Assembly: GCF_041381155.1 (NCBI RefSeq)
Contig: NC_091147.1
Location: 10,810,837-10,874,836 of the forward strand
Length of the DNA: 64,000 nucleotides
Origin: Argopecten irradians
Taxonomy: Eukaryota; Mollusca; Bivalvia; Pectinida; Pectinidae
Direction of reading: 5' to 3'
Of this stretch, positions 1-48,842 are shown piece by piece. The notes beneath the pieces are model-generated. The model was not told where the DNA came from and did no database searches. It saw nothing but the letters and a program-made list of their open reading frames with translations. The translations under genes were made by a program, and so were the position numbers. The stretch's first letter is position 1; every line of letters starts with the position of its first letter.

Positions 1-3000
1 TCAATCTTCTTGGCCTACACAGTATGCCTAGTGTGCATCGCATCCGGTTCGTTTTTTACATTTCTGTATTCTTTGGAATGGGGACCGTCCCTTACAATTC
101 AATGGATGTCAGCTTTTTTTATCGGCACAACAGAAAGCGTGATTTTGATTGAACCAACGAAAGTAAGTTAAAAAAGTCATCTCGTTTTCAGGTCTTTAAG
201 CTTATGCCTAACAACAGTATTTGATAACTCTCTATATTCGCGTCAATGGTAATTATTTCCAGAAAATACTTAAAACAAAAACAGGCCATACACTTCTTTG
301 CTATATACACTGTCACGAAACGAAGAGAATAACTAGCGTCATATCATATCAAGTCACGTTCTGTCTCACTCTGCACCACTCTGTCATCCCACATCATAAC
401 TTCGCTGATACTTCACTGATAGCGGCTCGTTGAGTTGAAAACGTAGACACTTACGGAGAGGCATTGATGGTGAACTGAATCTTTCCGGCGTTTAGGGGGT
501 TTTCCTAAAAGTCGTATGTCTTACACATCATTCTAATTTTAAAGTTTATCTGCATGCAAAGATTAAGTAATTGAAACGCATATAAAACCTCTAGTAGTCG
601 TATGGTGCTGTAATAGTAACACGCTTATGTAGATACTCCGTTAAGACTGAGTATAATAAAACATACCTTGTTTTGTAGGCCTTAGTACTAGCTGTCCTGA
701 TTGTTTGTCTCTGTTCGGAGAAGACGGGAGAAAATGACTTTCATTTTCCTCCAATTTCTGTATATCCAAAGATAAAGGATATATACAATCAAGGTATGAA
801 TTCTTTTCTAGCGATTCTTTACTCTTCATAGTTCTTATTAGCAACTGTAACTGGTACTAAATTTCACGTGGAAACATATGATGGTTTTAGATTGGGAAGA
901 CACGATTCTGATTGGTGAAGTACTAATACACTTAAGATGCCCAATAGAAAAGGATACTCGAAATACTAGTCCCCATGGTCTATGAATTATGTGAGGGTGA
1001 ATAAATGATGGTTGATGCGGCATGGATAGTATTGTCCTTTGAATCCATATAATTACAGGAAACCAACACGATATGTTATCTCCGTGCGACAAGCCAGAAA
1101 CGACCGATCAATTGCGTCGTCGGTATATCATACGTATGGACCGAAAACTCAACACATTTCTAAGGAACTTCGCTATGGGTTTGGCATACATATGTGTTCT
1201 TATGGTCATTGGATCTCAACAAAAAGTTTCCGAAGTCAGCAGACAGAACTTACAAATTAAAAGTACCCTAACAGCAACAGGAGAGGTAATAACAAAATCC
1301 TTTAAAACTGATTTATCAAATAATCTTTTTCATTGGTTTATAGGATATTAATTACATTTTGTTTCAAATTGCATCGAACTAGTTAAATCTTTCCGAACAA
1401 AAGTGGACATAAGCAGACGGATTCTTCTTCAAACCAACTTTCTTTGGCACAAACATTACAAAATGTATTATACTCTCTGAATTGATGAAATATGTCTCTG
1501 CTTGTATTCGATAGATAAATTAAAACCATTATTATAACTCCTACAATATGATCCATTTTGTCAGATTAAATCAATAGAGGATGTGTGGATGTATATTGAA
1601 GCTGTTGTGCTGCATCGCCTGTATTCCTCCGAGTTTTATAACGGTGAAATCAAATCGTTTGATGACCTGAGATTTATAGAAGATAACCTAAAAATGGGTC
1701 CGCTGAGAATACGACAAATTCGAGTTTCAGGTAGGTGTTGCATGCATATTACCCTATCAAAATGTGTAAGGTAAACATGAACGATCAAATTTAGGATGTT
1801 TTTGAACTCAGAAAACCTACATTTCGAAGAATCTCAGCAGCCATGCACCATTATTTTGTCACGATGTCATGGAGTCCTTAATATGAGGCGTTTCCATACA
1901 TTGCGCATGATATGCTTCTAGAGCATCCTTTCCCCTGTAGCCTCTATAGGACAATCGTTATATTGTTTATGTGACACATCGATAGTGATATGTTTTCGAA
2001 GTGTCTAAACAATCCTTATATATAATTTCCAATACTCATTCTATGTTTTAGATACCTGTGCAGCTCCCGCTTTGCTAAGGACTTATGCCATACACTGTTT
2101 ACCTGGCTACGATACAGACAATGAAGATAAAGGTGTTTACACGAAAGGTAGAAAATGGTTAAAATATTCATTTTAATGCCACCGCTATATATCTTACAAT
2201 ACAAGACTTAGGAAAGCCGAGATGACGAAGTTTAACCTCCAACCATTTCCTTATACATGTAGATGACATTCAAAACGGATACAAACTGCTGGTTATTTAC
2301 CTGATTCCACCCGAAGCAAGAAAAAAATCACTAAATCACTAAATTGAATCAGAACATTCTCCTATTTACTTCCATGGGAAATATATAAGTGCCTTCACAA
2401 ACAGTAACTCTGCCCAGAGTGTAAAAAATCAATAAATACCCATCAATGAATTACTTTACAATACATTGTCATGAACCAAGAAAAAGACCACACCGCAATT
2501 ACAGGGGACTCGATATAGTAAAAATGACTTGATTCCGGTGATTTTTACATCATGGTTTGACGGGACTGAATGACGTTTCATTCATCGGAAGGTTAAAGTT
2601 CGGAGTTAGATTGGAAAATTTTCCGTCAGATATGGAACTGATTCACGTCATCGTATTGACGGATAAACCATTTCGTATTGACGGATAAAATGTGGCAGTA
2701 AATATCCGTCAGTATATGCGGCAGTTGCAAGATAAATAGTGTTACACATGGCTTTGTCGCGGATTCAAATTTCTTTTGTCATTTATATTTTGCTGAACCG
2801 TTAAATTAAATTCCAGCATATTTGACCTGAAAAATCTTGATTTGAAATTGACCTTAGATTCACGTGAAATTCACCTGAAATTGAGGTCAATTTTATATGA
2901 AGAATTTTCAGGTCAATTTCAGGTTAATTTCCCCTGAAACTGACATGAACAAATCTTTATGTGAATTCAGGTTAAATCTTCATATGAATTTCAGGTCAAT

Positions 3001-5937
3001 GTCATTTCACCTGAATTTTTTTTCATGCACAATTCAGGGCAATTTCAGGTCAAATTGACCTGAAAAATGCTTCAGGTCAATTTCACTTGAAAAAATCTCC
3101 ATATGAATTTCAGGTCATTTTCAGGTCAATTTCATATGAATTTCAGGTCGATTTCATGTCAAGGTTTTGACCTGAAATGACTTTCTTTGCCCTTTTCAGG
3201 TAAATTTGACCTGAAAAATTTCACCTGAAATTGACCTTAAATTGACCTGAATTTACCTGAAGACATATTGCCTGTGTATAATACACAAATCCTATATAAC
3301 ACAAAGCCTCAATGCACTTCGAGATATTCACTTTCCTGCAATTACTAAAATGCAATATGTTGAAAAGTCAATTACACTGATAAGGTTAACCCTTGTTGTG
3401 TTCTCTAAATATTATATTGTAGGTTGGATCCCTTGGAACACATCTGATTTATGGGATGGTGTCGACACCCCGTACCGATATCACTACACCAGCCCAGAGG
3501 AGACACCAACCTACTGGGGTCTATTTGGGACCTATGGTGCCAGTGGGTATCTCGTTGATTTAGATATTTTGCCAGATGAGGCAATAAATGTAGTAAGAGA
3601 TTTAAAAAACGATGGATGGCTCGATCAGAAAACCCGTGCTCTGTTTATAGAAATCTGTCTCATGAACAGAAATAATAGATTGTTTACCCAAGTCAAAATC
3701 GTCTTCGAGCTCCCAAGTACAGGTAGAGTCTTCATGAACACACAGGTCGTATCAGCCAATCTGTACCCCTACACCAATACATTTGATTTTATTGTCCTGG
3801 CACTACAGTTAATCTTTGTAGTCACCATTTTTATCCGACTTGTGTCACTGATCGTCAAAGTGATAAAGACCAGAGGTCATTCCCTTACAACAACGAGTCA
3901 AGTCTTGGACATCCTACATCTTGGAGTGTCCATCGCTGCAGTGGTGTATTTTTTCATGAGGTTCACCGACACAATAAGCGTTCTCAACACCCTTAGACAA
4001 GATACGGGTAAAGTTATTTTTACTATTTTAGTGGTTTATTTGTATATCAAATATATTTAGATAACCTAATTTCAGTATTTCGCCGTCTATAACTATGAAA
4101 GTTTGTGGCCTACATTGCTATTGATTTGGTCGTTTTAACATCTTTTGGTTTCCCATATCAATATTTAACACAAGATTGTGAAGACAAATTCAGTGATATT
4201 ACATTAAATATTCTTAGTGTATATTTCAATATGCTTCAACAAGCACATCAACATACGGACCCTTATAGTTTTTTTTATAATTAACAGGATTCTACACGTC
4301 TTTTGGATGGGTGTTCCTTTGGGATGAATACTACACCACTACTCTTGGTATCATCACCTTCATCGCTATCCTTGACGTACTGAAGAATCTGTCATTCAAC
4401 TACTACCTGTTCCTGATGTATAAAACAATTCTGTCATTTCGATCCGAGGTTTTCCATTTCCTTATAACACTATCCATCATTATTGTAGGGTTCGCCAGCC
4501 TAATACATCTTATATATGGACATAGTGAAAGTGGTTTTAGTAGCATGGCGACATCAATTCTGACTTTATTTCGAATGACAATTGGAATTATCAAGTTTCG
4601 ACATGACATACAAGTGGTGGTAGTGGGTATTTTTATCATTATAGGACTATACGCTTCAATGGCCACGATTCTTTTCGTTAACCTATTCGTCAGTTCATTG
4701 GATCATAGATTATCATACATCAAGGAGTGTATTAGGAAAGGTTTGACTTCATTCGACTCGCATCTCAGTAGTCATTTCTGGAACAGATTGTCCAAAGTAT
4801 TCACAATTTGTGGAAGTACACAACGGGAACAAGGTTTGTTAAAAATAGGTAAAAATATTTCGTTGATCATTTATGTAGTTCGCTCTCAAGTCTAGAACTA
4901 CAATCGATTCATATTACAATGATTATATTACAGAGATGATATATTGCAAACGTTATAAAAGGACTAATTTTGATTGCGTTAACGTCAGTATGAACGCAAT
5001 TCGATAAAACATTCAATCTAGCTCGTTTGCGATACATGTAGAATATGCATGTATCCTAATGCGGTCATATCACCTTTTACGCAATCAAAACATTGTTTAA
5101 TTCATATAGCTCATAACATGCTTACTTCTGCATGTTCGTCGTCATATTTAAATTGGTTGATAATTTGGGTTAGTACGGGAGGCATTTTGAACGCAACTCC
5201 TCTTTCGTTGACGATATGGAGACAATTTGTCCAATTTACAGATTGTCGATTTATCCCATAGATCACTGCCTACCAAACTCAGTTTTATATTGGAAGACAA
5301 GTTTCATTTTACACATACATATATCTAAACATATAGTTTGTTGAGATCATATTTCAATATGTCTTATTTCAGAGCACGAATGTGACACTGATCGCCCAAA
5401 GGTAACAAAAAACACCCACTTCATTTCTAATTATCAATCACTGTTCCAGTATTAAAAATCTGAAAGATTACTTTGGAATACGACATTTTGTATATTTTCA
5501 TTGTTATTCAATTCGTTATCAAAATTAATTTACTGTAACGTCCCTTCAACAAGTGCAAGCAATGGAGTAAGAGCTGCTAAGAATATTTATAAATATCCCT
5601 TCTACGTTATTGAAAAGGATAGTTTTGGACAGCATAGTGATGATGTGTTCACATTAATATGGCGTACTGTTCACTGTTCAATAATTATTATCATTTACAT
5701 TTTTCATAACATTTTTTTCCGCATTTTCGTCAATTTTGTCACAATTAATGATTCGATAATTGCGTCGGGGTTTTTTTGCAATAAAAAGGGAGATGTAACC
5801 TGTGATAGGTTTCTATCGACGATCCTAAAGCGGTTTGAAGATGATTCCATCTTAGAGAGATCAGCCCTAGAGTCGGTGTTATTACACCTGGAACGTAGAT
5901 GTAGACTAAGAACAACTTTAAACGGATTGCAGTTCAG
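1..5937 (+). CDS. Polycystin-1-like (PKD1/PKD1L family) channel protein, 3' part; first half of a phase-consistent longer gene
   Basis: Exons read as 1-162, 679-793, 1059-1285, 1565-1730, 2052-2147, 3423-4007, 4288-4833, 5373-5401 and 5789-5937. All have GT donors and AG acceptors, and the phases match throughout. The 5' end lies outside the window. In order (residues counted from base 1): hydrophobic helices around 1-25 and 35-70, as in the PKD1 membrane region; S1 near 118-140 (FAMGLAYICVLMVIG); an extracellular polycystin domain with the family signatures TYWGLFGTYGASGYLVDLD and VFMNTQVVSANLYPYTNTFD; S2-S3; then, in the 4288-4833 exon, S4-S5, a pore-like segment (MATSILTLFRMTIG) and S6 (ATILFVNLFVSSLDH). 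This is the 11-TM PKD1-type end, known in other animals as a cation-channel or receptor subunit of cilia and plasma membrane. Exon 5789-5937 gives a charged helical linker (RFLSTILKRFEDDSILER) and ends in phase 2, matching the exon at 7370. The acceptor before 5789 is weak. Family call is confident; subtype (PKD1, PKD1L1, PKD1L2) is not decided. Confidence 0.9.
2800..3265. repeat. Palindromic interspersed GACCTGAAA / TTTCAGGTC repeat in a polycystin intron
   Basis: About 460 bases of the intron between exons 2052-2147 and 3423-4007 are built from the 9-mer GACCTGAAA and its reverse complement TTTCAGGTC, mixed in both orientations and separated by short AT-rich spacers. It could form many alternative stems. 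No coding potential is seen. Confidence 0.85.
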
Positions 5938-6234
5938 GTTTGTACAGCTATAATATAACACAGCTACGTACACAATACTACATTATGTATTACACGCTCC
6001 AAAGGATATGTAGATAGCTTCCGCTATTCAAAGCCGCTATGAAAATTTAAAACAAAATTCAATCCCTATGTGTTATTATTGACTTTTGCTATAAGGATAA
6101 CTTAATGTAAAAGCGTCGTCTTACAACACCTCGGAGAGTTCGTTATACGACCATTTCTTGCTAAACGTACATGGAGCTCCGCATAAAAAGGCATGATTTA
6201 TGAATATGTCGTTCCGAGGGAGACTAATATGATC

Positions 6235-6381
6235 TTTCTCTACCTTGAGGGTATGACAGGGAAATCTCTACCCAAGGAGAAGATTCACGACTTTCTCACC
6301 CGAGACTTGCCAAGGGTTAGACTGTTGTAAATCTCCTCTGAGGGTAGGGATTTTCCTGTCCTAAAATCAAGGTAGGAAAAT
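6235..6381. repeat. Imperfect inverted repeat (MITE-like hairpin) in the intron between the polycystin and ZU5 halves
   Basis: The left arm 6235-6285 (TACCTTGAGGGTATGACAGG onward) pairs with the right arm 6329-6381, leaving a loop of about 43 bases. The arms are about 50 bases with several mismatches. Fragments of the same motif recur near 7225-7260 (a CAGAGAAATCTAACCCT stretch), suggesting a small dispersed family. The rest of 5938-7369 shows no exon I can support. Confidence 0.65.
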
Positions 6382-7369
6382 TATCCTTTTTCTACACCTG
6401 TAATTTCCCTAAAAATGTTAAAAACTACACATACCACGATTTGAAAAAAGACAAATATTTATTTGATACCTGTATCAACTTGGAGACTTATATTTGCTTT
6501 GTCAAAAACTTAATTAAACTTGTTACACTGTAACAAACAGAATTCTAAATCGTTTTGAAATATTTGACGTCAAAGAAATATTATCACATATAATATCCAA
6601 CCCATTTTGATAGTCTTTTAACTTGGTTAACATCAACGAAATATGTCAAGGCATGTTAACTTTCGATTGCAATGATCATTAGGTCCAAGTTCAGAACGTG
6701 AAGCACGAGTTCGGGGTCAAAAGTAATATCAATTACCACATACACTACACGTGATAGCTAACAGGATGTTGTTTTAGTCATTTAGTCTCATTCAGTCAGA
6801 CTCTTGATGATAGAGACGTTCTGATTGTGAGTTCTCTCCCCTCTAAAGATCCTTACCTCAAAACAAGTATACGAGTTATTTCCCTTTTTATTTGACGAAA
6901 TCATGACATTAACTTGTACTTATATTATCTGTCTTAATTTTTAACAGTTATTAATTAAAGAGATTATAATCATAATTAATATAATATATTTATTATAAAG
7001 AATAAACATATGTATGAATAATTTGAATGTCAGTATGAGAGAATCAAATTTGCTGAATTTATGTATTTATTTGTAAAATAATATACGTAATATGCATTTC
7101 TTGAATAAAATATATGTTTGAAAAAAAATCAATTTCCAATTTAACTGCACAGGTTAATGTTTATTTGCATATGACGTTTTACAACTTCCGTTTTATCATA
7201 CAAATATGTTCTACGCGAGAAGGCTGTCTTGCCCTGGGTAAGACAGAGAAATCTAACCCTCACCGGAAGTGCAGATATCTTAGATGGGGTAGAAATGACG
7301 TCTTTCGACCAATAAATAACTGTGGTTCGTCGGTGAGGTGTATAAAACAATACTTGATAATGGTTCCAG

Positions 7370-10300
7370 GTATTCTATCGACTGGTCAAAGGAAGATAAC
7401 ACCTTGATAATGGAGTTCTTTCGAGGTACGGTGTACTGTAACATAACCGTTGATACCTATACCATACCCGAAGCCTGTCGACGAGGACTTGTTCCGTACG
7501 GTGAATCCACTCAGCCTATCAGTATAGTATTTAAGATACACCAGTTAAAAGGAAGACAACGACATGTCTCAGGACAAAACTCCGTAACCATGGATACTAA
7601 ACAAAAGTTTGTAGGTTTGCAATTACTATCAATATATTCATCCATAGTATAGTTGAGCAGAATAAAATGGTCGCAAATGATGATTCTTATCAACCATACT
7701 GTACAAAGTGGACATATAATAGTATATCATGTTGAATAAAAATATAAGTATCACGTTCAGAGTCATTGCTAACTGGAAATAATTTCATAAATATTATCAG
7801 ATTATCAGATCATAATTACGTTTATAATGTATCTAACAAATGCAGTCGGTGATACAACAGTTTTGACAAGTTGACAATGCTACATTGAACGTGTTTAAAA
7901 TATTGATACCATATTTGTTAGGTTGATCTCAGATTTGTATATCGACAGAGTGTTAAGCAGAGTACATTGCAGCGTTGTATATTGTTTATATATTAAAGTG
8001 CCATGTAATGATCAAAGTACCTTCTGATATCCTGTCGTGCCGACCTACGTTCCTCATCATACGCAGCAGAAACCATAATGAATGGTACCAACTACCAGCT
8101 AAGCGTGACCCAGCGAAGGAAGGGGAGGTAACTTTATTTCTTACGCTACACGTAATATATTTTGTCTCCTTAAGCAAAACATTTAAAACACTTGTTTCTG
8201 AAAATGTACATATATCAATTTTTAATCAAAATGGAAAATATAAGTAATTCAGGACGAGACCATCCACCAGCGACTGAGGTTTTGTAAACGTTCCAATGTG
8301 TTCGTAATCTTACCCATAATAAAAAATGGAAAATAATTGTCAGGGGGCCGTCATATGCACAAAAGCTACACACAATTTTTATTTTCCATACCCATTTCTG
8401 ATTCATTTTTATTTTCATAGGTTTATTTATCTGCTTCCACTTCGTGTTTCCCACACTACGTATTGGCTGTCATCTCTGACCTTTGGCCTGGTATTCCACC
8501 TACCGTGCAGGAGAAGAGTGCGATTGAGTACACCCTCACTAAATCAGGTGACGTCTTCTACCTCCCCGGGATGTGTAAGAAGATTGCAGTGGTGTTTCCG
8601 GAGGCCTGTGTTTCGCAGGACACGGAAATAACAATATTGGTAATAATCGATATTTAAGTTTTTAATTTGCTTAGTTGAACCCATAACGATAGACCATTAT
8701 TTTTAATAGTATATTTCAATTAACATAATGTTTACATAAATTAAATTAATGCACCCGTTTTCAACAGAAAATGTGTGGTCAGTTGAGTATTCATAATTCA
8801 TATTCGCAAAGCTAAAAGTTGTTATGATATAAAATCCCAGTTGTACTTACCATGACGACCACAAGTTCTGATTAAAGTAAATTTACTCTCTCAATCAACC
8901 AATTATTTTAGACCCAGGCTGTCGTATGACCGTTTATCTGTAAGGTATTTTATCTCTGAGCGAACCGATGACACTATTGTACCCGTCCACACCGGAGTGA
9001 TGACGCTGTGCACGTTCAGCACGATAGAGGGGTCACCTTCACCAAACTCATGTTGGGTTGTGTGTTGTGTGTATGACCAGGAAAGCCTTTTTTATGAACA
9101 GCAGAGTCGCATTTCATAATGTATTGGTCAACATCGGAAGACGGAGGTTATCAAAAGGCTGGAGACGGCAAAGTATCGGAATTAATACGTCAGGAACGTC
9201 TCTGTAGGCTATCAAACCTGTCATGAACGTCTCTCTATTCCATTTTGTCTAGTCAGTGGTCGGGGGAAAGTCGGTTCTTCCTCCATATTACCGCTGGTCG
9301 CAGGGGTGTGTAGAAGAAACTGAAAACTACAAACCACCAGAGAAATACCTTTCCAATAGTTGCTTTCGAAGATGGCATTGTAATGTTCTGGCTTTTGTTT
9401 TCTATGACTGTAAATTGAATCTCTCCATGGGGAATGAGGAAGAATCCTGATTATTTCCATATGTCGTCTAATATGAAACACTATTGACAAACAGTTCTTT
9501 GTGCAAATAAGATATGTCATCTGTTACTTTTATCATTTATTGAATGAAATTAACTTTTCCTTTTTATAATGACCATACTTGTTAAGCTATCTTAATTAGC
9601 AGTTTTGGCGAGCTGTTTTCCTGCATTGTTAGATGTGAATATATATATATGCTAAAATCAAATGATTTTGAAACATTATGTACTATTCTATCGTAAATAA
9701 TAAAGAGATAATTTAAACATTACATGTTGCTTCTTTATTCGTTATTTTGATGTTTGTCTTTATCTAAAAAATAGGTTGTTGCTTAATTACTGACGCTGTG
9801 TGTATATATATCTAATTGGAGCTAGGAGATGATTAATTATTACTGTATGTAAACCCATAGTCATACAGATATTTCCTAATAAATGTATATTTTTCAGCTG
9901 GAGCGCGGAGATAATTTCCCAGTACTGCATTTCCTGGCCCATGGTGACATCTCAGGACCTATAGCTGTTCAGTTCAGGAGAAAAAGAAACATACCGACAT
10001 GTGGTATCTATATATTATATTTCATTAACAGTAAAGTCACCGTGATTGCTTAGATGCAAGTGGGTGGATTGGATGAAGTTGAAAACTGTCATTCAATATT
10101 TATAAAAGACGTAAATTACAACCACAGTCACACTAGTTTTAAAATTAACCAAAATGAGGTGGGCTATGTCATGCAATATTTTGAAAGTATAACATGATTT
10201 ATGAGACATCCCTGTATATAAAATGAAGTATAATTGTTGCTGCAGGTGATGAATCCCAATTTAAGCTAATGACGAAGCAAGGAGATCTGGAGTGGAAAGA

Positions 10301-11990
10301 AGGAAACCCTGGAGCACGGACATTCCAAACTGACTTAAGCGTCCAGATTGACTGTTTGAAGGAAAGGTGAGATTTCCTTATAAATCAAACAATTGATCAT
10401 GACATCACAAACGAAAGGTTGCTACATTCTGTACAAGTCGTGAGAGTAAAAGGCTAAATGGTTAAAGTAGTTATGACAAAAAGTTATATCAAAGGAGTAA
10501 TTTATTATATACACCTATTTGGTATTATACCTTGAAATGATGGTGTTAGACGTTGTATTTAGAAAGTGTAACTATATATAAATCTGTCTATTGGATATGA
10601 TATATCCCTTCACAAGTTTACAATCAATATGCTTAAGACATTATGATTACAACTGCGATAAAGAAAAATGACTTGTCATCCTGTATAGATTTAATTAATA
10701 TCATCTTCGAATATGGAATATTCGGGACGATGATATCACGATGTCTAGAGCGTGGGCATAATACAGAAAATGCAATTAGAAATGAACACAATTATACACA
10801 TTATCACCTTTAAAACTAGTCAATACCATATAATGACTGACATCATATATTTCATTTAGGATGAGGAGTTTTGATATTTAGTACAGTTATAGATTGTTAA
10901 TATACACTTTTTGTAATATCGAAACATTTTTCCGATCGAATCGCATTTTTTTCTTTATATTTCAAAGATCTGTCATTTACATCTTTGTACGCACAGACAG
11001 TGCAGATGCGTGTTATTTATATGTAATACAATGCTTCACTGAACATAAGAGTTGTTTTACAAGAACAACATATAACTCTAGATTTATGATTCACTAAACG
11101 CATTGCAATCAATAGAATCAAATAATTCACCTGAATTAATATGAAAGTATACAAACATTTAGCTGCTTTTCAGTTATTTTTTATAATTTTCTCTTACCCA
11201 GCGTGAGGACTTCGATCACTGTGTGTAAATCAGGCTATCTCACTGTAAGTACATACTTTATAGCATCAATAACTAATACAATATATACTCGGGTACAGCA
11301 AGTCATTCACACAGCATTATGTTGATCACGATATTAGGAATATTGAAACAGAGGAATTCCATTGAGTATTTAGCATGTTGATACCACTTTCTAAAACGTC
11401 CGTTGCTGAAGTAGTTAAAAAAGATATTATTGTAGTAAACAAGAAAATAATATCGGTTGAGGGTGGTTTTAAGAGACGCAATGGAACGACTACGAGTGTA
11501 TTTGGGTGAATTTTCCAATGTTTTCCTTTAAAATGCCCAATTTATATCTTTATTATTTCAGCTGTTTCACAAGAAGACGTATCTGGGTAAGTTTTGATTT
11601 CATAACAAAATAAGATTCATCAAAGCAATTTTTAATACGAAGATGTCGCAGATATACTTATTTCATTGTACTTTAAACCTCGTGCGTATTACAAGATACT
11701 TGATAATTTACACGACGAAATATATATTAAGTATTGTTTAAATTTTAAGATATTATAATAACATTTTAGATCACCAAAAGGGAATTCTTTTGTGCATCTA
11801 CAACAAAACTATCACAACTCAGCACTGGCGTAAGATAGGACGCAATCTCGGATTCTCACAGAAATGGCTTACGGAACTGGAAGTCAGAAAACCGAGGACC
11901 CTAGAAGAAAAAGCGTGTGTTATTCTACAACAATGGCTGAGGGGAAACGGAGGGCGGAATCTCTTCGATATACGCGAACGTTGGATGTGA
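7370..11990 (+). CDS. ZU5-like/UPA-like region plus C-terminal death domain; second half of the polycystin gene model
   Basis: Exons 7370-7610, 7999-8127, 8421-8639, 9898-10003, 10246-10366, 11202-11244, 11562-11586 and 11770-11990 (TGA 11988-11990) join in frame. The first needs one base to complete a codon, which is exactly what the exon ending at 5937 supplies. With the upstream exons the window encodes 1059 aa. The first two exons give a beta-rich segment with FFRGTVYCNITVDTYTIPEA. The next pair resembles ZU5 (MCKKIAVVFPEACVSQDTEI, then HGDISGPIAVQF), as in UNC5, PIDD and ankyrin tails. A UPA-like stretch follows. The last exon is a death domain (HWRKIGRNLGFSQKWL; LEEKACVILQQWLRGNGG) ending five residues after its last helix. 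Death domains recruit partners by homotypic contact in cell-death and NF-kB signalling. No start codon context or promoter is evident between 5937 and 7370, which favours one gene, but a separate ZU5-death gene with an unseen 5' exon remains possible. The death domain is the safest call and the ZU5 assignment is moderate. Confidence 0.8.
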
Positions 11991-15092: not shown

Positions 15093-15329
15093 TGAGGTAA
15101 TGGTTTATTTGATAAGAAGCAATCATTCTGAGCAAAACATCTACTCTAATAAGAAGTAAACATTAATGTTAAGTAATGAACACCGGTTGTAATCGTTTAG
15201 TCAATTATATATGTATATGCGAAATGGCCTTCATTTTTAAAAACTGTAGAGCAAATAAATACGTTTAATTAAAGCCTTTATTATGTATACCATTTCAATT
15301 TTTAGTTCACTGATTAACCGATTACTCTA

Positions 15330-17167
15330 GATCTGTCGGAAGATTTCACGAGTCGTTGCTACCTGTAGTGTACAAGATATATGAAACTATCGTTCATAAA
15401 CGACTTGTTACCTGGCTCCAGGAAAACTGTCCGGCGTTCCCAAATGAACAACAACAAGGTTTTCAACGTTTCGTTGGTTGCGAAACAGCGTCGTTCATCC
15501 TTCAGGAAACGATTTTTGCAAACATTGAACAGCATAACAAGGTATTTGCAGCTTTCCTGGACATAAAGAAAGCGTTCGATACCGTTTGTCATAGGGGACT
15601 TATACAAAAATTGAAGCGGAAAGGAATACATGGTAGAATATTAAGCATTGTGGAAAACACATATTCAGGACTTAAAAGCGCTATTCTTTGCAATGGAACC
15701 AAATCGCGATGGATCGAAATGAAGCGAGGATTGCGACAAGGTGGGACGATGTCCACGTTATACTATTTGATCTTCATCGACGATCTCCTGAACGACTTAT
15801 CTAAATCTAACTCTGGTGCCCCACTTAATGCTTTACATTGTGGTAACCCTACACTTGCTGATGATATCACCTTACTCGCCCTGTCACCGCGCTCCTTACA
15901 GTATATGCTTAATATATGTCAGGATTATTCAATGCAGTGGAAATTTTCATTCAGTACTACCAAAAGCTGTACCATGGTCTTTGGTGGTCGATTCGATAAG
16001 GATATTTTTCAATGGAGATTAGGTGGAGTAGAACTGGAAATGAAGGATAACCATGAACACCTTGGAATACCTATATCTAACAACATGTCATGTACAAAAA
16101 AGATTGAAAAGAGCTATAAAAAGGGACGCGCATCGCTGTTTGCTATACTCGGCATTGGTGCAAACGACTGTAAAGTAAACCCAATGATATACCTCAACCT
16201 ATACAGAAAAGTTGTACTGCCATCCGCACTCTATGGATCTGAAACATGGAACAACATCCCGATTTCAACACCTTGCAGTTAAAAAAATTCAGGATTTTCC
16301 TACGCGCACAAGATCTGACATCGCGGAGAGCATGCTCGGTCTCTTTCGTATTGGAGCAGAAATTGATAAGCGAAAACTACAATTTCTCCATCGACTTATA
16401 AAACTACCGAACGATTACCTTGCAAAGAAAGTCTTTTTAGTGCGTGTATATACCTATCTAAACGACGATGTTCCGGAACAAAAAGGATTCATACCAGATA
16501 TTTGTAATATCTTAACAAAGTACAACTTAATGGATTTATTCGCTCGTTATATCACTACCAAGACGGAGTTTCCTTCAAAATCGAATTGGAAACTATATAT
16601 TAAGCACGCTATTAGAAACCGTGAAACTGATCTGTGGCGTGATAGAATGAACAATCAGAGTGACTTCGACAGATTCAGATACATACACAAGCAGATATAT
16701 CCCCACGGATTATGGATCAACGCAACATCCACAGCGGATCTCGCTTGTGCGAGATTTGTATCTAAATTATTGACATATCCACCACAATCTCAAGAAAAAA
16801 CATGTAAAAAATGTGGTAAAGTATTCACAGATCTCATCCGCCATTACGTCACACATTGTGACGTCACCGTATGTATCAGAGACAGATTCACTACGCAAGT
16901 ACTTGATATTTGTGGTATTGATACATTTTTAACTGTAGATAATGCCTCAGACGAAATTTATCTTCGGAAGACACAGCCCAAACATTCCTGGCGGCTGAGG
17001 AGAGGTTCTAACTGAAATGACTGTGTAAATTGTTATTATTATTTCTTTTTTTTTCGCGATAACGTAATGTGTTGAACTTTTCTTTTTCACTCTCTTTTTG
17101 AATATATTGAACATATACTGTATCTCTTTTAGAGGAAATAAAGAATTGAATGAATGAATGAATGAAT
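15330..17167 (+). mobile_element. 5'-truncated non-LTR retrotransposon (LINE) with (GAAT)n tail
   Basis: The element carries a reverse transcriptase and downstream C-terminal region but no endonuclease domain or 5' ORF. It ends after AGAGGAAATAAAGAATTG in a (TGAA)n tract at about 17145-17167, a typical LINE microsatellite tail. The left boundary is approximate: homology-like reading begins around 15330 (RFHESLLPVVYKIYE). Confidence 0.85.
15356..17015 (+). pseudogene. LINE ORF2 reverse transcriptase fragment, broken by one frameshift
   Basis: The first frame (15356-16282) holds RT motifs: the template-binding stretch LLPVVYKIYETIVHKRL, catalytic FLDIKKAFDTV, the GLRQGG turn and the LADDI aspartate pair. 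At about 16250, after SALYGSETWNN, the reading shifts to the frame closing at 17015, which starts RFQHLAVKKIQ and continues TRSDIAESMLGL, then KLQFLHRLIKLP, ending in a cysteine/histidine finger (CKKCGKVFTDLIRHYVTHC). The join looks like a small deletion because the usual spacer between the two blocks is missing. Reverse transcriptase would copy the element RNA into DNA at the target. This copy lacks the endonuclease and is out of frame, so it is dead. Confidence 0.85.
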
Positions 17168-18948: not shown

Positions 18949-21063
18949 TTAAATAGAGAACACCCGAACGGAAGACGGGCTGTCTACTCGGATCCCCACA
19001 GATTCGTCCCTAAAGGGATGGATATACGGATCTTCTATACAGATGTACCGTCCCGGAACAACGTCCTCCCACTGGAAATACGGACTGGGGTCGTCACGCT
19101 CGAAGTAGAAGGCAACATATACCTCATCGCCATCTTTGTCCTGTGAATAATAAAAAAAAGTAGAGTATACATATAACGGATATGGTAGATAGTTAGTGGT
19201 CTATTTTAATTTCGACAAGTAACCAAAACTTTCGACACAATTATTGCGATAACTCCTATTCTGTACCCAGTATTTCCATTCTATTACAGACTTACATGTA
19301 GCTACCGTTGCGGTATAAGTAGGTATTGATCATTATGTCAGGTGCTGATGAGCGTGACGCCATACTTTTCAGAGAATAACACGTTAGCTCGTGTGTGTGA
19401 AGTACAAGGTGCGTGTTTGGGGAAACTGCAGTAAATTCGTATTGTATGCCTTTTTTGTAAGAGTTAGCAAAACCCCACCTGATACATTTTTGCCCTTTTT
19501 ATAGCTACATCCCTTTAAAGAATGTAACTGTATCCTTGAGTTACATTGTATTACTAGTAAAAAATACCAAACAATTATATGTGCTAATTCATAATACATT
19601 CGTACTAAGGTTTAAGTTCATTTGTTTCATGTCCACAGCCAGTTATGATAATAGCTGCTCAAGAGAATGTCAAACTCAGTACCTAAAAGAGGAAAGCAAG
19701 TGATATGATGTCGGAACAAGATAACCACTCATCCTTCGCCATATCGTCAATGTAAACTGTGACCAACCATGTTTTATAATGTAATAGGACATGTCAAGAC
19801 AGGTGAGTATTGAGATGTTAAAATGGAACCCCAATTTAAGTGCATGGAATAAATATATAATTTTCCAACGTAAAATAAATGTTGTATTTAATCATTGCAT
19901 ACTGCTGTATGCTTTAGACAGGATGGGTTATTATTACTTATCGAATTTTAAACAAAAATGCGGTTTAAAAGGTAGCAATATATATTTTTTGTTTTGTTGG
20001 CTTCAACATTTCGAACACATACTTTCAATTTTTTCGATCTAAGTAAATTTCACTCGTATTCATTTTTTTCATTTAATTTTGAAAACCGCGAATATTAATC
20101 TTCGCGTACTTGTTTCGAAATAGAAATCGCGAAATTTTAGTAGCCCCTAAAAAGTTGGTTTACTTATTATTCAAGTTTTTTATATCCTAGTCAATACAAA
20201 ATGTAAGTTACCTGTAGGAAAATGCAGTGTCGAAAAATATACTCATGAAACCGTGATATAAATCCTACGACCCCGTTAGAGGTACGGCGTGGCCTCATAC
20301 CGAACAGTTCCGGTGGAATCTCCCTGATAAAATCCAATATGTTACACCCAGGGAAAGCCTTCCATGCCAGACTCTTGGCCTTATCCATCGCCACTGGTTT
20401 AGCGTATAGACGGACAGAAAGATCTCTCACAGTCGGTTTGGAATGTATACGAGAACTTGTATCTCTATTGGCATTTGTCGATTTCGCTGAAGCATTAGTT
20501 TCCTGCCCGAATCCGCCTTTAGGTTTTGTTTTAACATCTTCCTCTTTCGCCTCTTTACATTCTAATTTGTGTTTTTTCCTGTCTTTCTTTTGACAAATTT
20601 TCGAACAATAATCTACCATTTTGCATCGAGCACAAGTCTTAACTTCCGGGCCTAATTTCCCACATACAGTACATGTTTTGTGTTGTGTTTTATTCTTTCC
20701 TCCCTCCATGTCCGCAAAGAAATTCAAATGACCCGATACCATATCACTCAAAGCATATAAATTGTGTCGACCTGCCTGTCTCTCTTGTTCAATGTACACT
20801 TCCTGCGCGTTTCCACCTATTGACTTGGTAGGATATAATACAGTTCCTGCTTTATTTTCTCTTTTTGGAACAAACGGAGTGTCATCTGATACGTTTACAT
20901 ACTCTAACTTTCTGCGATATTGTATTTCTTCACATTTGACCTTGTGTTGACCTTTCCAGTCCAATCGCTGACACACTGGGGAACAGTAGTACACTTCCTT
21001 ACATGCCGAACAACGCCGGAGACTTAATGGTTTCTTACCGCAATATCCACATTCATTCTCCAT
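18949..21063 (-). CDS. Protein with two MYND-type zinc fingers
   Basis: There are two coding exons on the minus strand. The first runs 21063 down to 20212 (donor CAG|GTAACT, phase 0). The second runs 19140 down to 18949 (acceptor TTCACAG, stop TAA). Together they encode 347 aa. MYND finger 1 spans residues 5-44 (C5, C8, C18, C21, C27, C31, H40, C44). MYND finger 2 spans 131-169 (C131, C134, C144, C147, C153, C157, H165, C169). Both are complete. MYND fingers bind proline-rich partner peptides, usually in transcription or chromatin complexes. The C-terminal 100 residues (IPPELFGMRPRR, FISRFHEYIFRHCIFL, YVAFYFERDD, DSPSSVRVF) form a conserved-looking domain I cannot name, and there is no SET domain. 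A TTTATCGTTTCAG acceptor at 21072 shows an intron in the 5' UTR just before the ATG, so the promoter lies further right. The partner or target is unknown. Confidence 0.88.
20083..20166 (-). repeat. Fragment of a CGCGAA-rich MITE, inside the MYND gene intron
   Basis: The sequence has AACCGCGAATATT, CGCGAAATTT and AAAAGTTGGTTTAC. It matches the right end of the more complete element at 40580-40812. Another diverged remnant (CCTCGCGAAAAAGTGCTCG) lies near 25110. Confidence 0.5.
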
Positions 21064-21439
21064 TTTTAAACCTGAAACGATAAATATGTCTTTGACTTAG
21101 ATCGAGTTAATCACATGGTTAGAGTATAAACAGTTGCGCTTTTACATTTTTTATGTTGAATGATTTCATTATGGATTTCGCGTGCATTACGAAAAAGGAA
21201 AAAAAAAAGGAAAAATATCTCTTCCGAGTGTTTGGGTCCTTGGTGTGTTTCTAATATTTAACGAGTAAAACATCTTCAATTATCATATCATGTTTTTATC
21301 GGTAAATACACCGGTAGATATTGACTGAGAACGGATATACATAGTAATATTATTTTACCATGATTTTAAAGTCGTTATAACAATCAAAACATACACATGT
21401 CATTGGTACATCAGTACATATCATGGAATATAATTCAAA

Positions 21440-31703: not shown

Positions 31704-34700
31704 ATGTTTCAGATGACCGTTTGGCCACAGTTGGCTTTTCTAACACTGGCCCTCAACCTTAGTGGACTGGCGATATCCCAAGGTAATTAACAAATAGTTT
31801 TTACTGCAAGATGAAAGACGCCAAGCTTCAATGTCTTAACGTTACCAACATTGGTACTTCAATGTCTTAACGTTACAAACATTGGAACTTCAAAGTCTTA
31901 ACCTTACAAACATTGGTACTTCGATATCTTAACGTTACAAACATTGGTACTTCAATATCTTAATGTTACAATTATTGGTACTTCAATGTCTTAACGTTAC
32001 AAACATTGGAACTTCAATGCCTTAACGTTACAAACATTGGTACTTCAATGTCTTAACGTTACAAACATTGGTACTTCAATGTCTTAACGATACAAACATT
32101 GGTATTTCAATGTCTTAACGTTACAAACATTGGTACTTCAATGTCTTAACGTTACAAACATTGGTACTTCAATGTCTTAACGATACAAACATTGGTATTT
32201 CAATGTCTTAACGTTACAAACATTGGTACTTCAATGTCTTAATGTTACAAACATTGGTACTTCAATGTCTTAACGATACAAACATTGGTACTGCAATGTC
32301 TTAACTATAAAAACTTGGTACATCAATGTCTTAACGTTACAAACATTGGTACTTCAATGTCTTGACGTTACAAACATTGGAACTTCAATGCCTTAACGTT
32401 ACAAACATTGGTACTTCAATGTCTTAACGTTACAATCATTGGTACTTCAGTGCCTTAACGTTACAAACATTGGGACTTCAAAGTCTTAACGTTACAATCA
32501 TTGGTACTTCAATGTCTTAACGTTACAAACATTGGAACTTCAATGTCTTAACGTTACAAACATTGGAACTTCAATGTCTTAACATTACAAACTTTGGTAC
32601 TTCAATGTCTTAATGTTACAAATATTGGTACTTCAATGTCTTAACGTTACAAACATTGGAACTGCAATGTCTTAACGTTACAAACATTGGTACTTCAATG
32701 TCTTAATGTTACAAACATTGGTACTTCAATGTCTTAACGTTACAAACTTTGGTACTTCAATGTCTTAACGTTACAAACATTGGTACTTCAATGTCTTAAC
32801 GTTACAAAAATTGGTACTTCAATGTCTTAACGTTACAAACATTGGAACTTCAATGTCTTAACATTACAAACTTTGGTACTTCAATGTCTTAATGTTACAA
32901 ATATTGGTACTTCAATGTCTTAACGATACAAACATGGGTACTGCAATGTCTTAACGTTACAAACATTGGTACTTCAATGTCTTAACGATACAAACATTGG
33001 TACTTCAATGTCTTAACGTTACAAACATTGGTACTTCAATGTCTTAACGTTACAAACATTGGTACTTCAATGTCTTAACGATACAAACATTGGTACTTCA
33101 ATGTCTTAACGTTACAAACATTGGTACTTCAATGTCTTAACGTTACAAACATTGGAACTTCAATGTCTTAACATTACAAACATTGGTACTTCAATGTCTT
33201 AATGTTACAAATATTGGTACTTCAATGTCTTAACGATACAAACATGGGTACTGCAATGTCTTAACGATAAAAACTTGGTACTTCAATGTCTTAACGTTAC
33301 AAACATTGGTACTTTAAAGTCTTAACGTTACAAACATTGGTACTTCAATGTCTCAACGTTACAAACATTGGTACTTCAATGTCTTAACGTTACAATCATT
33401 GGTACTTCAATGTCTTAACGTTACAAACATTGGTACTTCAATGTCTTAACGTTACAAACATTGGTACTTCAATGTCTTAACGTTACAAACATTGGTACTT
33501 CAATGTCTTAACGTTACAAACATTGGTACTTTAAGGTCTTAACGTTACAAACATTGGTACTTCATTGTCTTAACGTTACAAACATTGGTACTGCAATGTC
33601 TTAACGTTACAAGCATTGGTACTTTAATATCTTAACGATACAAACATTGGTACTTCAATGTCTTAACGTTACAAACTTTCAATGAAATATCATTTAGTGG
33701 TAATATATTTTCATGACTCTTTATTAAATACTAATATGATCGTTAATTACACTATTTATATGCCAAACTGAAACAGTACAAACAAGCGTAATAATATGTG
33801 ACCAAACAACCCCATAGTCTAACGATTGGTCTCGGCAATTCGTCAGTAAAAAACTTTCTAAAGTTTTTTTTTAAACCGCTATTTCAAAAACAAAAACAAA
33901 ATCACCATATTTTCTAGTAAGTAGCGGCATTCGACATCCTTAAAAGTCACTAAATATCCTAATATCTGAATAATGACTAATCAGAGAGATTTATTTCGTT
34001 ACTTTGGTAACGGAGCTTTTCGACAGAGTACCATCCCATAAGCCCCATATATTAATTTCACTGAAATCAGACACATTCTGTAGCTGATACGTCAGCATTG
34101 CAGGATTCATCCTGATATGAAACGTTGATGCTCACAGTTACACCGTGATATCTACTAATTTAACAGAAAGTGGTGTACAAAACATTTTAGGTTTCAGAGA
34201 TCAACTTCGATTCTATGTCATGTATGCTTTAGATTATAGATGGTGCTGGTATCGGATCTACACTGACCCAAGGTCCTGGCACGAGGCACAAGATATATGT
34301 CGACAGAACAATCAGACAATGGAATTGGCCCACATCAACAACCAATCACAGCATGACTACCTTGCATCACTGATTCGGAACAGTCTACCAGCTATCTACG
34401 CATATCCTCTAGGGTATCAGATGTTGTTATGACTTCAACTCTGACAATGGAATCAAACAGTTTTATAATTAAAACATATTTTCCAACATATTTATTCTTG
34501 CACATGTATCATCATTTTCGAATCAGGACCGATTCTACTAACACATAGCAACGTTGAAATCGCAATACAAACCTTTCGAAACATACAAGTATAGCTTTAG
34601 TATAAACATAAAAGTAGAGTTTTAGTAGAAACATGCAAGTATAGCTTTAGTAGAAACATACAAGTAGATATTGGTATAAACATACAAGTATAGCTTTAGT

Positions 34701-37700
34701 AGAAACATACAAGTAGATATTGGTATAAACATACAAGTATAGCTTTAGTAGAAACATACAAGTGTAGCTTTAGTATAAACATACAAGTGTAGCTTTAGTA
34801 TAAACATGCAAGTATAGCTTTAGTAGAAACATACAAGTATAGCTTTAGTAAAAACATACAAGTGTAGCTTTAGTATAAACATACAAGTGTAGCTTTAGTA
34901 TAGACATGCAAGTGTAGCTTTAGTATAAACATGCAAGTATAGCTTTAGTATAAACATGCAAGTATAGCTTTAGTAGAAACATACAAGTATAGCTTTAGTA
35001 GAAACATACAAGTATAGCTTTAGTAAAAACATACAAGTGTAGCTTTAGTATAAACATACAAGTGTAGCTTTAGTATAAACATGCAAGTATAGCTTTAGTA
35101 GAAACATACAAGTGTAGCTTTAGTAAAAACATACAAGTATAGCTTTAGTAGAAACATACAAATGTAGCTTTAGTATAAACATAAAAGTGTAGCTTTAGTA
35201 TAAAAATATAAGTATAGCTTTAGTAAAAACATGCAAGTATAGCTTTAGTATAAACATACAAATGTAGCTTTAGTATAAACATACAAATGTAGCTTTAGTA
35301 TAAACATACAAATGTAGCTTTAGTATAAACATAAAAGTGTAGCTTTAGTAGAAACATAAAAGTGTAGCTTTAGTATAAACATAAAAGTGTAGCTTTAGTA
35401 TAAACATACAAGTATAGCTTTAGTAGAAACATACAAATGTAGCTTTAGTATAAACATACAAATGCAGCTTTAGTATAAACATACAAATGTAGCTTTAGTA
35501 TAAACATACAAGTATAGCTTTAGTATAAACATACAAATGTAGCTTTAGTATAAACATACAAATGTAGCTTTAGCATAAACATGCAAGTGTAGCTTTAATA
35601 TAAACATACAAATGTAGCTTTAGTATAAACATGCAAGTGTAGCTTTAGTAAAAACATACAAGTATAGCTTTAGTAAAAACATACAAGTGTAGCTTTAGTA
35701 TAAACATACAAATGTAGCTTTAGTATAAACATACAAATGTAGCTTTAATATAAACATACAAATGTAGCTTTAGTATAAACATGCAAGTGTAGCTTTAGTA
35801 TAAACATGCAAGTGTAGCTTTAGTAGAAGCATACAAGTGTAGCTTTAGTATAAACATACAAATGTAGCTTTAGTATAAACATACAAATGTAGCTTTAGTA
35901 TAAACATAAAAGTGTAGCTTTAGTAGAAACATAAAAGTGTAGCTTTAGTAAAAACATGCAAGTATAGCTTTAGTATAAACATACAAATGTAGCTTTAGTA
36001 TAAACATACAAATGTAGCTTTAGTATAAACATACAAATGTAGCTTTAGTATAAACATAAAAGTGTAGCTTTAGTAGAAACATAAAAGTGTAGCTTTAGTA
36101 TAAACATAAAAGTGTAGCTTTAGTATAAACATACAAGTATAGCTTTAGTAGAAACATACAAATGTAGCTTTAGTATAAACATACAAATGCAGCTTTAGTA
36201 TAAACATACAAATGTAGCTTTAGTATAAACATACAAGTATAGCTTTAGTATAAACATACAAATGTAGCTTTAGTATAAACATACAAATGTAGCTTTAGTA
36301 TAAACATGCAAGTGTAGCTTTAGTAAAAACATACAAGTATAGCTTTAGTAAAAACATACAAGTGTAGCTTTAGTATAAACATACAAATGTAGCTTTAGTA
36401 TAAACATACAAATGTAGCTTTAATATAAACATACAAATGTAGCTTTAGTATAAACATGCAAGTGTAGCTTTAGTAGAAGCATACAAGTGTAGCTTTAGTA
36501 TAGACATACAAGTATAGCTTTAGTATAACCATATAATAATAATGATAATTGACTTTATTTTCATTCGATTGCACATTGAGTCAAAGACTCTTCTCACACG
36601 TGGTCGAACATATAAAATGTACAGTATTTACAGCATAGTTAATAAACATACAGTAATTATATAAAATGAAATCAAAGATATAACAGAATAAGTAAATCAT
36701 ATCACAGATTAAATTATCATATCACAAAAACAAAATCATAATATCACAGTCTAGAAAATTGCTATAATTTACGCATAAAAGCCATGCAAACATAAAATAT
36801 CATGCTGCAATTATATATAATGAAATAATAAACACAAATAATTGTCTTGTATACATATATGCCAATATGGCAAAGAAATAAAATTTGACAGATTATACAC
36901 TAATATAGTATACATTAAAACAAGAAGTGAATGTCATTTGATAACATGAAATACTAAAAGAAGGTTTTAAAAATCATCACATAATAAGATGTGGATAAAG
37001 GGATTTCAGTTGTAGTCTATACATAAAATCAATGATTATTTTTATTATTATAAACTTCGAAGAAATGCATTCTGCATTCAACCTTGAAGGTGTTAAGAGA
37101 TGGTTTAGCCGTGACTCTTGCAGGAAGGTTATTCCAATGTGCTGGACCATTAAATTTAAAAGAATTTCTTAACTTGGCTGTTTTATGATCTAGTTTGAAT
37201 GGGATGTACATTACTGACTAAGATGTTACAATTTAGGTAGGCAGGACATAAATTATTCATAATTTTGTACATCAAGACACATTCGTTGTATTCAACCCTG
37301 TGAGTGAAAGGCAGCCATTTCAATTTGACAAACAGTTGTTCACCTGGAACACTATAATCTACATCTAGAATAATTCGTAGTGTCCTTTTCTGGATTCGTT
37401 CAAGTTTTTTAACAAATTTCTGTGAACAGTGTCCCCAAATGTTGGAACAATAATCAATATATGGTAAAATAAAACAATTGTGGTAAGTTATTCTAGCCGA
37501 CATTGGTAGGAATTTTTTAATTCTGCACAGTTGATAAAGTTTAGAATTTTTTTTTCAAGACACCTTGCACTTGTATATCCCAAGATAGATGGTCATCGAT
37601 AATCACACCTAAAAGCTTTTCTTTCTTGACATTTTGTAACTGATAATTTCCATCTGTTATACTTAGTTCCTCTGTAAGTCTGTGCTTCTTCTGTTTACTA

Positions 37701-40700
37701 CCAATATGGTTTAGGTTTTTTCAGTGTTTATTACCATTTTATTATCATTACACCAGTTCTTTACATTATTAAAATCGTTTTGTAGACATGTTTTAATGAT
37801 ATTTAAGTGTTTATCTGCTTTTTGCATAGAAGTATCATCTGCATACATAAAAAGTTGACATTGTTTGGAGCAGAGAGAGAGATCATTAGCATACACTAAA
37901 AACATTAAGGGCCCTAGAATGGATCCTTGGGGAACTCCAGATTTGATTTCTAGGGCATTGCTAAGAACATTACTAAAAGATACCTTCTGACATCGATGTG
38001 TTAAGTAGGAATAGAAAAAAATTATAGTATTATCAGAACAGCCATATAGGTTCATTTTCTGAAGTAATAGCTTGTGATTGACTAGGTCAAAAGCCTTGTG
38101 GAAATCAATAAACATAACTCCTATCAGATTACCTTTGTCCAGCTCATCATACCATTTGTTTGTGAGAGCAGTTAAGGCAGTCTGACAAGAGTGCATATTA
38201 CGAAATCCTGACTGATTCTCAAGGAGAAGGTTATATTTGTTTAAAATTTCATAAAAAGTGGACTGGACATGTTTTTCTAAAAGTTTTGATAAAACAGGAA
38301 GAATGGATATTGGTCGATAATTGCTGACGGAACATTTCTCACCTTTTTTTAAAAATAGGATTTACTTTTGCAAGTATAGCTTTAGTAGAAACATATAAGT
38401 ATAGCTTTAGTAGAAACATACAAGTATAAATTAAGTAGAAACATGCAAGTAAAACTTTAAGTATAAACGTACAAGTATAGCTTAGTAGAAACATACAGGT
38501 AGAACATAAAAGTATATCTTTAGTATATACAAGTATAGCTTCAGTAGAAACATACAAGTAGAACATAAAAGTATATCTTTAGTATATACAAGTATAGCTT
38601 CAGTAGAAACATACAAGTAGAACATAAAAGCATATCTTTAGTATATACATGTATAGCTTTAGTAGTAATACTCTGAGGGTATGGGATACAAAGAATGCTA
38701 GGGCAGAACTAATCCGTTACAACACTGGTAATAAACAATAACCCACAAAGCGAACATCTTTGAGATACGAAAACAATATCATTTATTCAGTAGATTGGAA
38801 TTAGAAATCGCACCAGCATTATACGACCGAGACACTTACTTAATTATCTCATCACGATATTCTACTGTGATACTGTTATTATTTGAATTGAACATTTTTT
38901 CTAGATTAGAAACTCGAGAAGAAGAACTCGGATAATATCCCTAATATGGAAACGTAAAACTCAAAATATCCCTAATATGGAAGAGTAGAACTCGAAATAT
39001 CACTAATACGGAAACGTAGAACTCGAAATATCCCTAGTATGGAAGAGAGTAACTCGAAATATCACAAATACGGAAACCTAGAACTCGAAATATCACTAAT
39101 ATGGAAAATAAGAACTCGAAATATCACTAATATGGAAACGTAGAACTTGAAATATCCCTAAGTTGGAAAAGGAGAACTCGAAATATCCCTCATATTATCA
39201 ACTGAACGTGTCTTTTTATCTGAAGTTATTGTGTTTAATATAATATTACAACAAAACCTTTCTCCAAATACCAGTGTAATCTTATCCCTCTATATATAAC
39301 TTATATCTTACAGACCCACCATGTGGATCGGTTTACACAAGATGAGGTCGGAACAGCCACTTTGGCAAGATGACTACGCTGGTCTGAGTTCTGGGTATAA
39401 TCCTGTTCCTACATATAGATCTAGTGAAGCGTGTTACATGTTACATGACCTGGAGTCGACTTATGTCGAAAGGGGCTGTCACATATCGAAGCCTTTTATA
39501 TGTCAGGCAGAAACCCTCGGTAAGGAATTACCATACATAAGACTTCTTAGATATTCGTTATATCACATATCACTTTTACAGTCACATATAAAGACTGTTC
39601 ATTACCTCTAACAGTTAACATTACCTATACTCATATTATACTCCTGAATACGGTGATAAAATAGCCATAATCTCTGCTGTTTTCACCGAAACGGGGGTAC
39701 TAAGTAATGTGTGTTTTCAACATAATATGACCAGTAGATGTGGGATACTGTAGATCACGTTGAATTACCCGTAGCTCTTTTGCAAAATCATAAATCTTGC
39801 ATATTCATGAGGAACTTTTAAATCTGACTTCCGATTTGTTTTCAATTTCTACAAACAGTATATGATGACTAATTTCAACAAAATATAGATGTAGCAAAGA
39901 AAAGTCAATGACACGTTTGCTATAAATGTTGATCAATTTCGTTGAAATTTAGTCAATAGATGTACCATGGCACACTTGATACAAAGTTTATCAAAACGTT
40001 TTATCCTTAATAACTAATCATAGTAATTAGGAGTCTTCAAACCTTAATGCCATATTTTATGTCACTCTCCCCTCGTGCAAACTAACCAGTTTAAAGAGGT
40101 AATTTAGTTACAATGGTTTGTTGATTATTTGGTGGGAAGCAGATAGATGTCACTTTCCTGTAAACATGTCCGAAAGTAGTTCGACAATGATTAGTTTATT
40201 GTTCAAGTACCTATAGAAATCTAGATTCAAAAAGACGTTCGGTGAATAGGAATGCATGGAACAGTTGTTCATAATTAAAATGATTTGCTATTTGCTTATG
40301 ATGCTATCGTTACACCTTTTTCGACAAATAACGTAATCTTATTTCAGGTAACACAACTCCGGCTTATTGGATATGGAATTTATTTCACACTTGTAAGTCT
40401 TTTTTTAAAGTAACAAAAGACACTCGCTAAAACTAGTGTATTATGTAACTTTCAAAAAAGAAAACTCACTCGTGTGAAATAAATTTCATATTCAACAATC
40501 TTGATATATTTTGATGACTAGTTTTATTTGTCGTACCACAAATTTACAACAAATGACAACAGTTTTATTGTTTATTGTTTTACTGTAAATCAACTTTCTT
40601 TCGTGGCTACTAATTTTGCAATTTCCATTTCAAAACATTTTCACGGAAATCTTGTTTCGCGGATTTAATTATGCATGATTTGGAACATATCAATTCGCAG

Positions 40701-48800: not shown

Positions 48801-48842
48801 AAAATCGACACACATGTAAACGTGATCCATCAAGTTAGATAA
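42857..48842 (+). repeat. 52-bp satellite array, about 115 copies
   Basis: The unit can be read as TGTAAACGTTCCATCAAG + TTAGACTCATTCACTCCC + ACAAAATCGACACACA. Copies are about 95% alike. Two alternating single-base classes dominate (ACATG/ACCTG before TAAAC; CCCAC/CCAAC before AAAATC), with rarer CCCGC and CATTAAG forms. Scrambled or shortened units occur at about 46653-46695 and 47873-47912. No start, stop or splice structure explains it; open frames inside are repeat artefacts. Confidence 0.98.

Follow-up and report, generated by a model that had tools for sequence, protein, structure and literature searches.

A polycystin-1-like channel protein predicted to carry a ZU5-like and death-domain tail in scallops

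Gene model and polycystin region

The stretch of DNA analysed here, 64,000 nucleotides of Argopecten irradians (assembly GCF_041381155.1, contig NC_091147.1, forward-strand positions 10,810,837 to 10,874,836; hereafter the window), opens inside a gene for a polycystin-1-like channel protein, the 5′ part of which lies beyond the window. A preliminary description made from the sequence alone had proposed 17 exons on one strand with a continuous reading frame, and these can indeed be rebuilt on the plus strand between positions 1 and 11990 into a 1059-amino acid (aa) frame that stays open to a TGA at 11988–11990. All 16 introns are GT-AG with compatible phases, and the translation agrees letter for letter with residues 318–1376 of P0002, the protein that the public set gives for this gene (1376 aa; its entry in the protein set comprises six member sequences). 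Downstream of the channel, the frame continues into a presumably intracellular tail that comprises a linker, two short predicted helices, two beta domains and a death domain. Judging from sequence comparisons, channel and tail very likely belong to one fused gene that exists in several copies in scallops. Searching the window by tblastn (E ≤ 1e-3) with five of the ten family proteins as queries gave a single copy.

In terms of domain content, the window model matches Polycystin_dom (1.6e-35) and PKD_channel (1.8e-23) in Pfam, both above the curated cut-offs. P0002 also matches PLAT at residues 71–175 (2.6e-11), a portion encoded outside the window; PLAT is matched in 3 of the 10 family members. 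Compared with the sequences of solved structures, P0002 matches human polycystin-1 over residues 14–290 (1.6e-26), PKD1L3 over residues 484–918 (1.6e-21) and, as the best match to the channel, polycystin-2 (5t4d, 1.3e-41). The PLAT domain, together with the match to human polycystin-1, marks the protein as polycystin-1-like, in agreement with the channel type first proposed. Its PLAT, Polycystin_dom and PKD_channel domains follow the same order as in polycystin-1 and PKD1L3, from which the scallop protein differs by the beta domains and death domain that follow the channel. The large outer domains of these proteins were not seen, and in P0007, which covers the GPS site, a GPS-like segment reads KSYFFGTFTASVKMISPDMIDF and gives no Pfam GPS match at E values up to 1.

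Although polycystin-2 is the top channel match, the scallop proteins differ from polycystin-2 and PKD2L1 in the presence of PLAT, in giving no EF-hand Pfam match and in the sequence of the pore region. In polycystin-2, LGD is the acidic selectivity filter. The stretch aligned to ILGDINF of polycystin-2 reads TIGIIKF or TIGMIKF in all nine channel-bearing members, so that IGI or IGM replaces the LGD of polycystin-2-like channels and the acidic filter residue is missing. In other bivalves, a polycystin-2-type gene with EF-hands is described from an oyster (PMC12677090), and a survey of TRP genes in the Zhikong scallop gives one TRPP gene (PMC8539334).

The join between exons 9 and 10

Exon 9 ends in phase 2 at 5937, and the preliminary description noted that the next exon would have to supply exactly one base. 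Position 7370 does so, completing an Arg codon (AG from exon 9, G from exon 10). Protein searches with the tail as query (reaching relatives that share short exact words; candidate lengths of about 202–642, 582–1853 and 969–3083 aa under a 0.55–1.75 rule) returned ten proteins, P0001–P0010, comprising P0002 and nine relatives. The third of these, run with a Pecten tail against longer candidates, gave four proteins, all previously retrieved. The polycystin linker adjoins the tail in 10 of 10 proteins, and no tail without this linker was found among them (0 of 10). The join 5937/7370 is kept in all nine relatives from Argopecten, Pecten and Ylistrum (P0002 left out), each of which leads from the post-channel linker through the exon 9 helices into the tail by way of the join, which has the pattern G-x-Q-[YF]-R-[YF]. 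P0001, which was retrieved by a tail-only query, itself starts in the post-channel linker, and a strand predicted at its residues 98–104, in the first beta domain, spans the join at R102, where confidence in the model is low. The conserved join and the lack of a tail without the linker argue for one fused gene, as had been claimed for this locus, and against two neighbours.

The intron between these exons could be used in another way, in that the fused gene might also give rise to a channel-only isoform by reading into intron 9, making the tail an optional, regulated add-on. Retention of the intron would bring an immediate stop, since read-through of exon 9 ends after four residues, and P0001 has an alternative C terminus that lacks the death domain. 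The gene model of P0001 may, however, be incomplete, and its C terminus diverges elsewhere than at intron 9; on the sequence evidence such an isoform appears improbable.

The intron 9 interval (1432 bases) contains a TATAAAA at 7341 and five AATAAA or ATTAAA words, and an in-frame ATG lies at 7410, within exon 10. As written, the earlier denial of any promoter or start context at 5938–7369 is thus wrong, though the words resemble background: AATAAA occurs three times against 1.61 expected at the window rate, ATTAAA twice against 1.34 and TATAAAA once against 0.55, none far above that rate. The residue encoded at 7410 is Met in 4 of the 10 members (P0002–P0005), with Ile, Val or Leu at this site in the remaining six, and the residues preceding it are contiguous with exon 9 in all nine relatives and largely conserved. 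Separate adjacent genes, the first a polycystin whose frame closes with the TAA of 5951–5953 and the second a death-domain gene starting from ATG 7410 under the TATA at 7341, would accommodate the in-frame stop that ends 16 bases past exon 9, the TATAAAA, the ATG and the poly(A)-like words, but this arrangement is highly improbable and was rejected because the join and the continuity ahead of the ATG are conserved, no tail-only protein was returned, the Met is not conserved and the intron signals stand little above background.

Names are available for 8 of the 10 members: Argopecten irradians (3), Pecten maximus (4) and Ylistrum balloti (1), all Pectinidae. The preliminary description had suggested looking for the same architecture in other molluscs, and proteins of Pecten maximus and Ylistrum balloti keep the join between channel and tail. 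The presence of several copies per scallop suggests repeated duplication of the fused gene. P0002 and P0003 have an identity of 0.92 over the channel, compared with 0.84 and 0.86 over the two beta domains and 0.84 over the death domain; for P0002 and P0010, the corresponding values are 0.64, 0.47 and 0.50, and 0.52. On these figures, change has been somewhat quicker in the tail than in the channel. In FastTree phylogenies of nine members, built separately for channel and tail, P0002–P0005 are divided from the rest (0.995 and 1.000, respectively) and a Pecten group is recovered (0.983 and 0.957). The two trees disagree in two places: P0003 joins P0004 in the channel tree (0.876), whereas P0002 joins P0004 in the tail tree (0.969), and P0008 falls with Pecten in the channel tree (0.725), whereas P0010 does so in the tail tree (0.993). 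These conflicts could stem from exchange between copies or from noise; they do not favour separate genes, yet the agreement is incomplete.

Table 1. Exons of the fused gene and the disputed intron, in window coordinates
Feature	Position	Strand	Content
Exon 1	1–162	+	5′ end outside window; starts at P0002 residue 318; precedes the polycystin domain and is probably transmembrane
Exon 2	679–793	+	Probably transmembrane and loop
Exon 3	1059–1285	+	Probably first helix of channel module
Exon 4	1565–1730	+	Polycystin_dom (PF20519) begins at exon start
Exon 5	2052–2147	+	Polycystin_dom
Exon 6	3423–4007	+	End of Polycystin_dom, start of PKD_channel (PF08016)
Exon 7	4288–4833	+	Remaining PKD_channel, pore-region motif FRMTIGIIKF, then conserved linker past last channel helix
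Exon 8	5373–5401	+	Short linker, variable
Exon 9	5789–5937	+	Two predicted helices, start of first beta domain (low-confidence model)
Intron 9	5938–7369	+	Disputed join; read-through gives FVQL, then TAA (5951–5953)
Exon 10	7370–7610	+	First beta domain, ZU5-like (probable)
Exon 11	7999–8127	+	First beta domain
Exon 12	8421–8639	+	End of first beta domain, start of second
Exon 13	9898–10003	+	Second beta domain
Exon 14	10246–10366	+	Second beta domain
Exon 15	11202–11244	+	End of second beta domain
Exon 16	11562–11586	+	Short linker
Exon 17	11770–11990	+	Death domain (Pfam match at about 11814–11942), then the stop codon

Within intron 5, short repeats resembling the word TTCAGGTCAATTT, some direct and some inverted, are by eye densely packed between 2790 and 3270.

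Beta domains and death domain of the tail

The fold of the tail was approached with AlphaFold2 models built from ten-row alignments, both of low confidence (P0006, mean predicted local distance difference test 45.1 and predicted template modelling score 0.28; P0001, 55.7 and 0.39). Both models give a beta-rich tail, to which that of P0006 adds a helical C-terminal part. In Foldseek, ankyrin ZU5 structures rank first for both, and the sole match at E ≤ 0.001 for each model is an ankyrin ZU5 entry (2.2e-04 and 8.8e-05). Several ankyrin entries (4d8o, 3ud1, 3ud2 and 6m3q) align in order across both beta domains, with high root-mean-square deviations (rmsd) of 8.3–12.0 in one model and up to 18.8 in the other; the second beta domain also aligns with the ankyrin ZU5 chains 3f59 and 3kbu. 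In one model, 4d8o covers the whole module at an rmsd of 18.8, and a UPA domain is not resolved. We consider it probable from these models that the beta domains are ZU5-like beta sandwiches. Of the ZU5-UPA tail initially described, the ZU5-like part is partly supported, by the low-confidence models, and for the UPA part no Pfam match was obtained.

The tail resembles the ZU5-ZU5-UPA-death region of ankyrins in that beta domains precede a death domain, and ankyrin is the nearest fold in both models; it differs in being attached to a channel, in having neither an ankyrin-repeat match nor a ZU5 sequence match and in that no UPA was resolved. The fold matches listed include neither UNC5 nor PIDD, which does not exclude them. 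Self-cleaving ZU5/FIIND proteins such as PIDD, NLRP1 and CARD8 are processed at an [SH]F[S] motif. The one motif searched for, [SH]F[ST], is absent from all 10 members (last 480 residues; the whole of P0001), so self-processing of the PIDD/NLRP1 type looks unlikely. The absence of this motif from the searched stretches sets the scallop proteins apart from UNC5, PIDD and NLRP1/CARD8, as does the lack of an immunoglobulin or thrombospondin Pfam match in the parts covered. Among published work, one paper states that ZU5 and the GPS domain of polycystin-1 are homologous (PMC3482391), and UNC5 netrin receptors are the subject of a review (PMC6080411).

The death domain is recognized from sequence. 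Pfam Death (PF00531) matches 8 of the 10 members with a best E value of 2.7e-05; P0001 has 14 residues and P0009 none in the death-domain region, and the eight matching members are most likely the others. A death domain in the tail, as first described, is thereby supported. When a profile of five tails was compared with the sequences of solved structures, 17 of the 20 matches listed were to RIPK1 (4), TNFR1 (3), FADD (8) and ankyrins (2) over the death-domain part, the remaining three being unrelated proteins; the best E value is 0.0076, and three fall below 0.01. RIPK1 gives the best of these death-domain matches, and the ankyrins are ankyrin-1 and ankyrin-3. A likeness to SH3BP4 is limited to 1 of the 10 members, for which the death-like model of SH3BP4 gives a match (E = 0.0042). 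SH3BP4 itself does not belong to the membrane proteins, and the scallop family gives no SH3 Pfam match.

Proposed function and neighbouring features

It has long been asked how polycystin-1, once stimulated, brings about a response of the cell. The likeliest explanation of the architecture described here, to which as a whole we assign an even chance, is that the protein is a subunit of the polycystin-1 type and that its tail recruits partners with death domains. The protein would pair with polycystin-2-type subunits in a channel; stimulation of its outer domains would rearrange the tail, and the death domain would then nucleate an adaptor complex of the MyD88, IRAK, FADD or RIPK type. The ZU5-like pair may serve as a brake or scaffold, for which UNC5 provides a precedent. 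That death-domain signalling is the main output is slightly less than an even proposition. It is somewhat unlikely, though conceivable, that a duplicated family of polycystin-1-type receptors arose in scallops whose members are themselves death-domain receptors; a mechanical, chemical or microbial stimulus perceived by the channel complex would then assemble a death-domain signalling platform directly, and neither a further receptor nor a second messenger would be needed.

Several observations weigh against recruitment of death-domain partners by a ZU5-like and death-domain tail. The Death score of the window copy is 19 bits, compared with a curated cut-off of 22.6, and no ZU5 or UPA Pfam match was obtained in any of the 10 members at E values up to 1 or in any of five tails at E values up to 10, in searches where the filters of the profile program remove most weak matches. 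The profile search of the 1059-aa model put forward in the preliminary description therefore finds Polycystin_dom and PKD_channel, Death below its cut-off and neither ZU5 nor UPA. Taken overall, that description holds for a polycystin-1-like protein, for the fusion and for the death domain, and in part for ZU5-like domains. Its proposal that a mechanosensory or ciliary channel is coupled to death-domain signalling stays a hypothesis, against which stand a pore motif unlike that of polycystin-2 and the nature of ankyrin death domains, which are not known for killing.

The ranking of folds, with ankyrin ZU5 nearest in both models, favours instead the main alternative, that of an ankyrin-like anchor. 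Here, the tandem ZU5-like domains would attach to the cytoskeleton through spectrin or some other partner, the death domain would, as in ankyrins, be structural, and the tail would hold a polycystin that senses force at the cortex or cilium and would not signal death or immunity. The ordered alignment of several ankyrin entries over both beta domains, the presence of ankyrin-1 and ankyrin-3 among the death-domain matches and the missing [SH]F[ST] motif all point in this direction. Against it stand the high rmsd of the two-domain alignments, the RIPK1 identity of the top death-domain sequence matches, the lack of a Pfam ankyrin-repeat match and of a resolved UPA domain, and we regard such an anchor as somewhat unlikely.

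Both polycystin-1-like proteins and ZU5/death tails have precedents. Their combination is conserved across three scallop genera and in several copies, and no description of the fused architecture was found among the matches listed in the open-access literature, outside which most subscription papers lie; mentions in PMC8260672 and PMC10855541 are unrelated. A natural lineage in which scaffold and death domain are part of the channel subunit would offer either directly testable signalling from channel to adaptor or a built-in cytoskeletal anchor, and would add polycystins to the invertebrate receptors that are joined to death-fold domains.

Elsewhere in the window, a 301-aa open reading frame on the minus strand (20194–21096), about 8 kb past the polycystin gene, matches the MYND zinc finger in two stretches (PF01753, 1.3e-22). 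Reverse transcriptase fragments, probably of the long interspersed element (LINE) type, lie at 15314–16279 on the plus strand and 37714–38361 on the minus strand (RVT_1, 4.3e-23 and 1.3e-27). Pieces of a C-type lectin domain occur on the plus strand at 34121–34429 (first part; 0.0098, below the cut-off) and 39300–39608 (last part; 0.00011); they are perhaps exons of one gene, split by a satellite array and reverse transcriptase. The largest satellite array, of about 6 kb with a 52-base unit, spans 42857–48839, and smaller arrays occupy 31826–33676 (31 bases) and 34579–36533 (25 bases).
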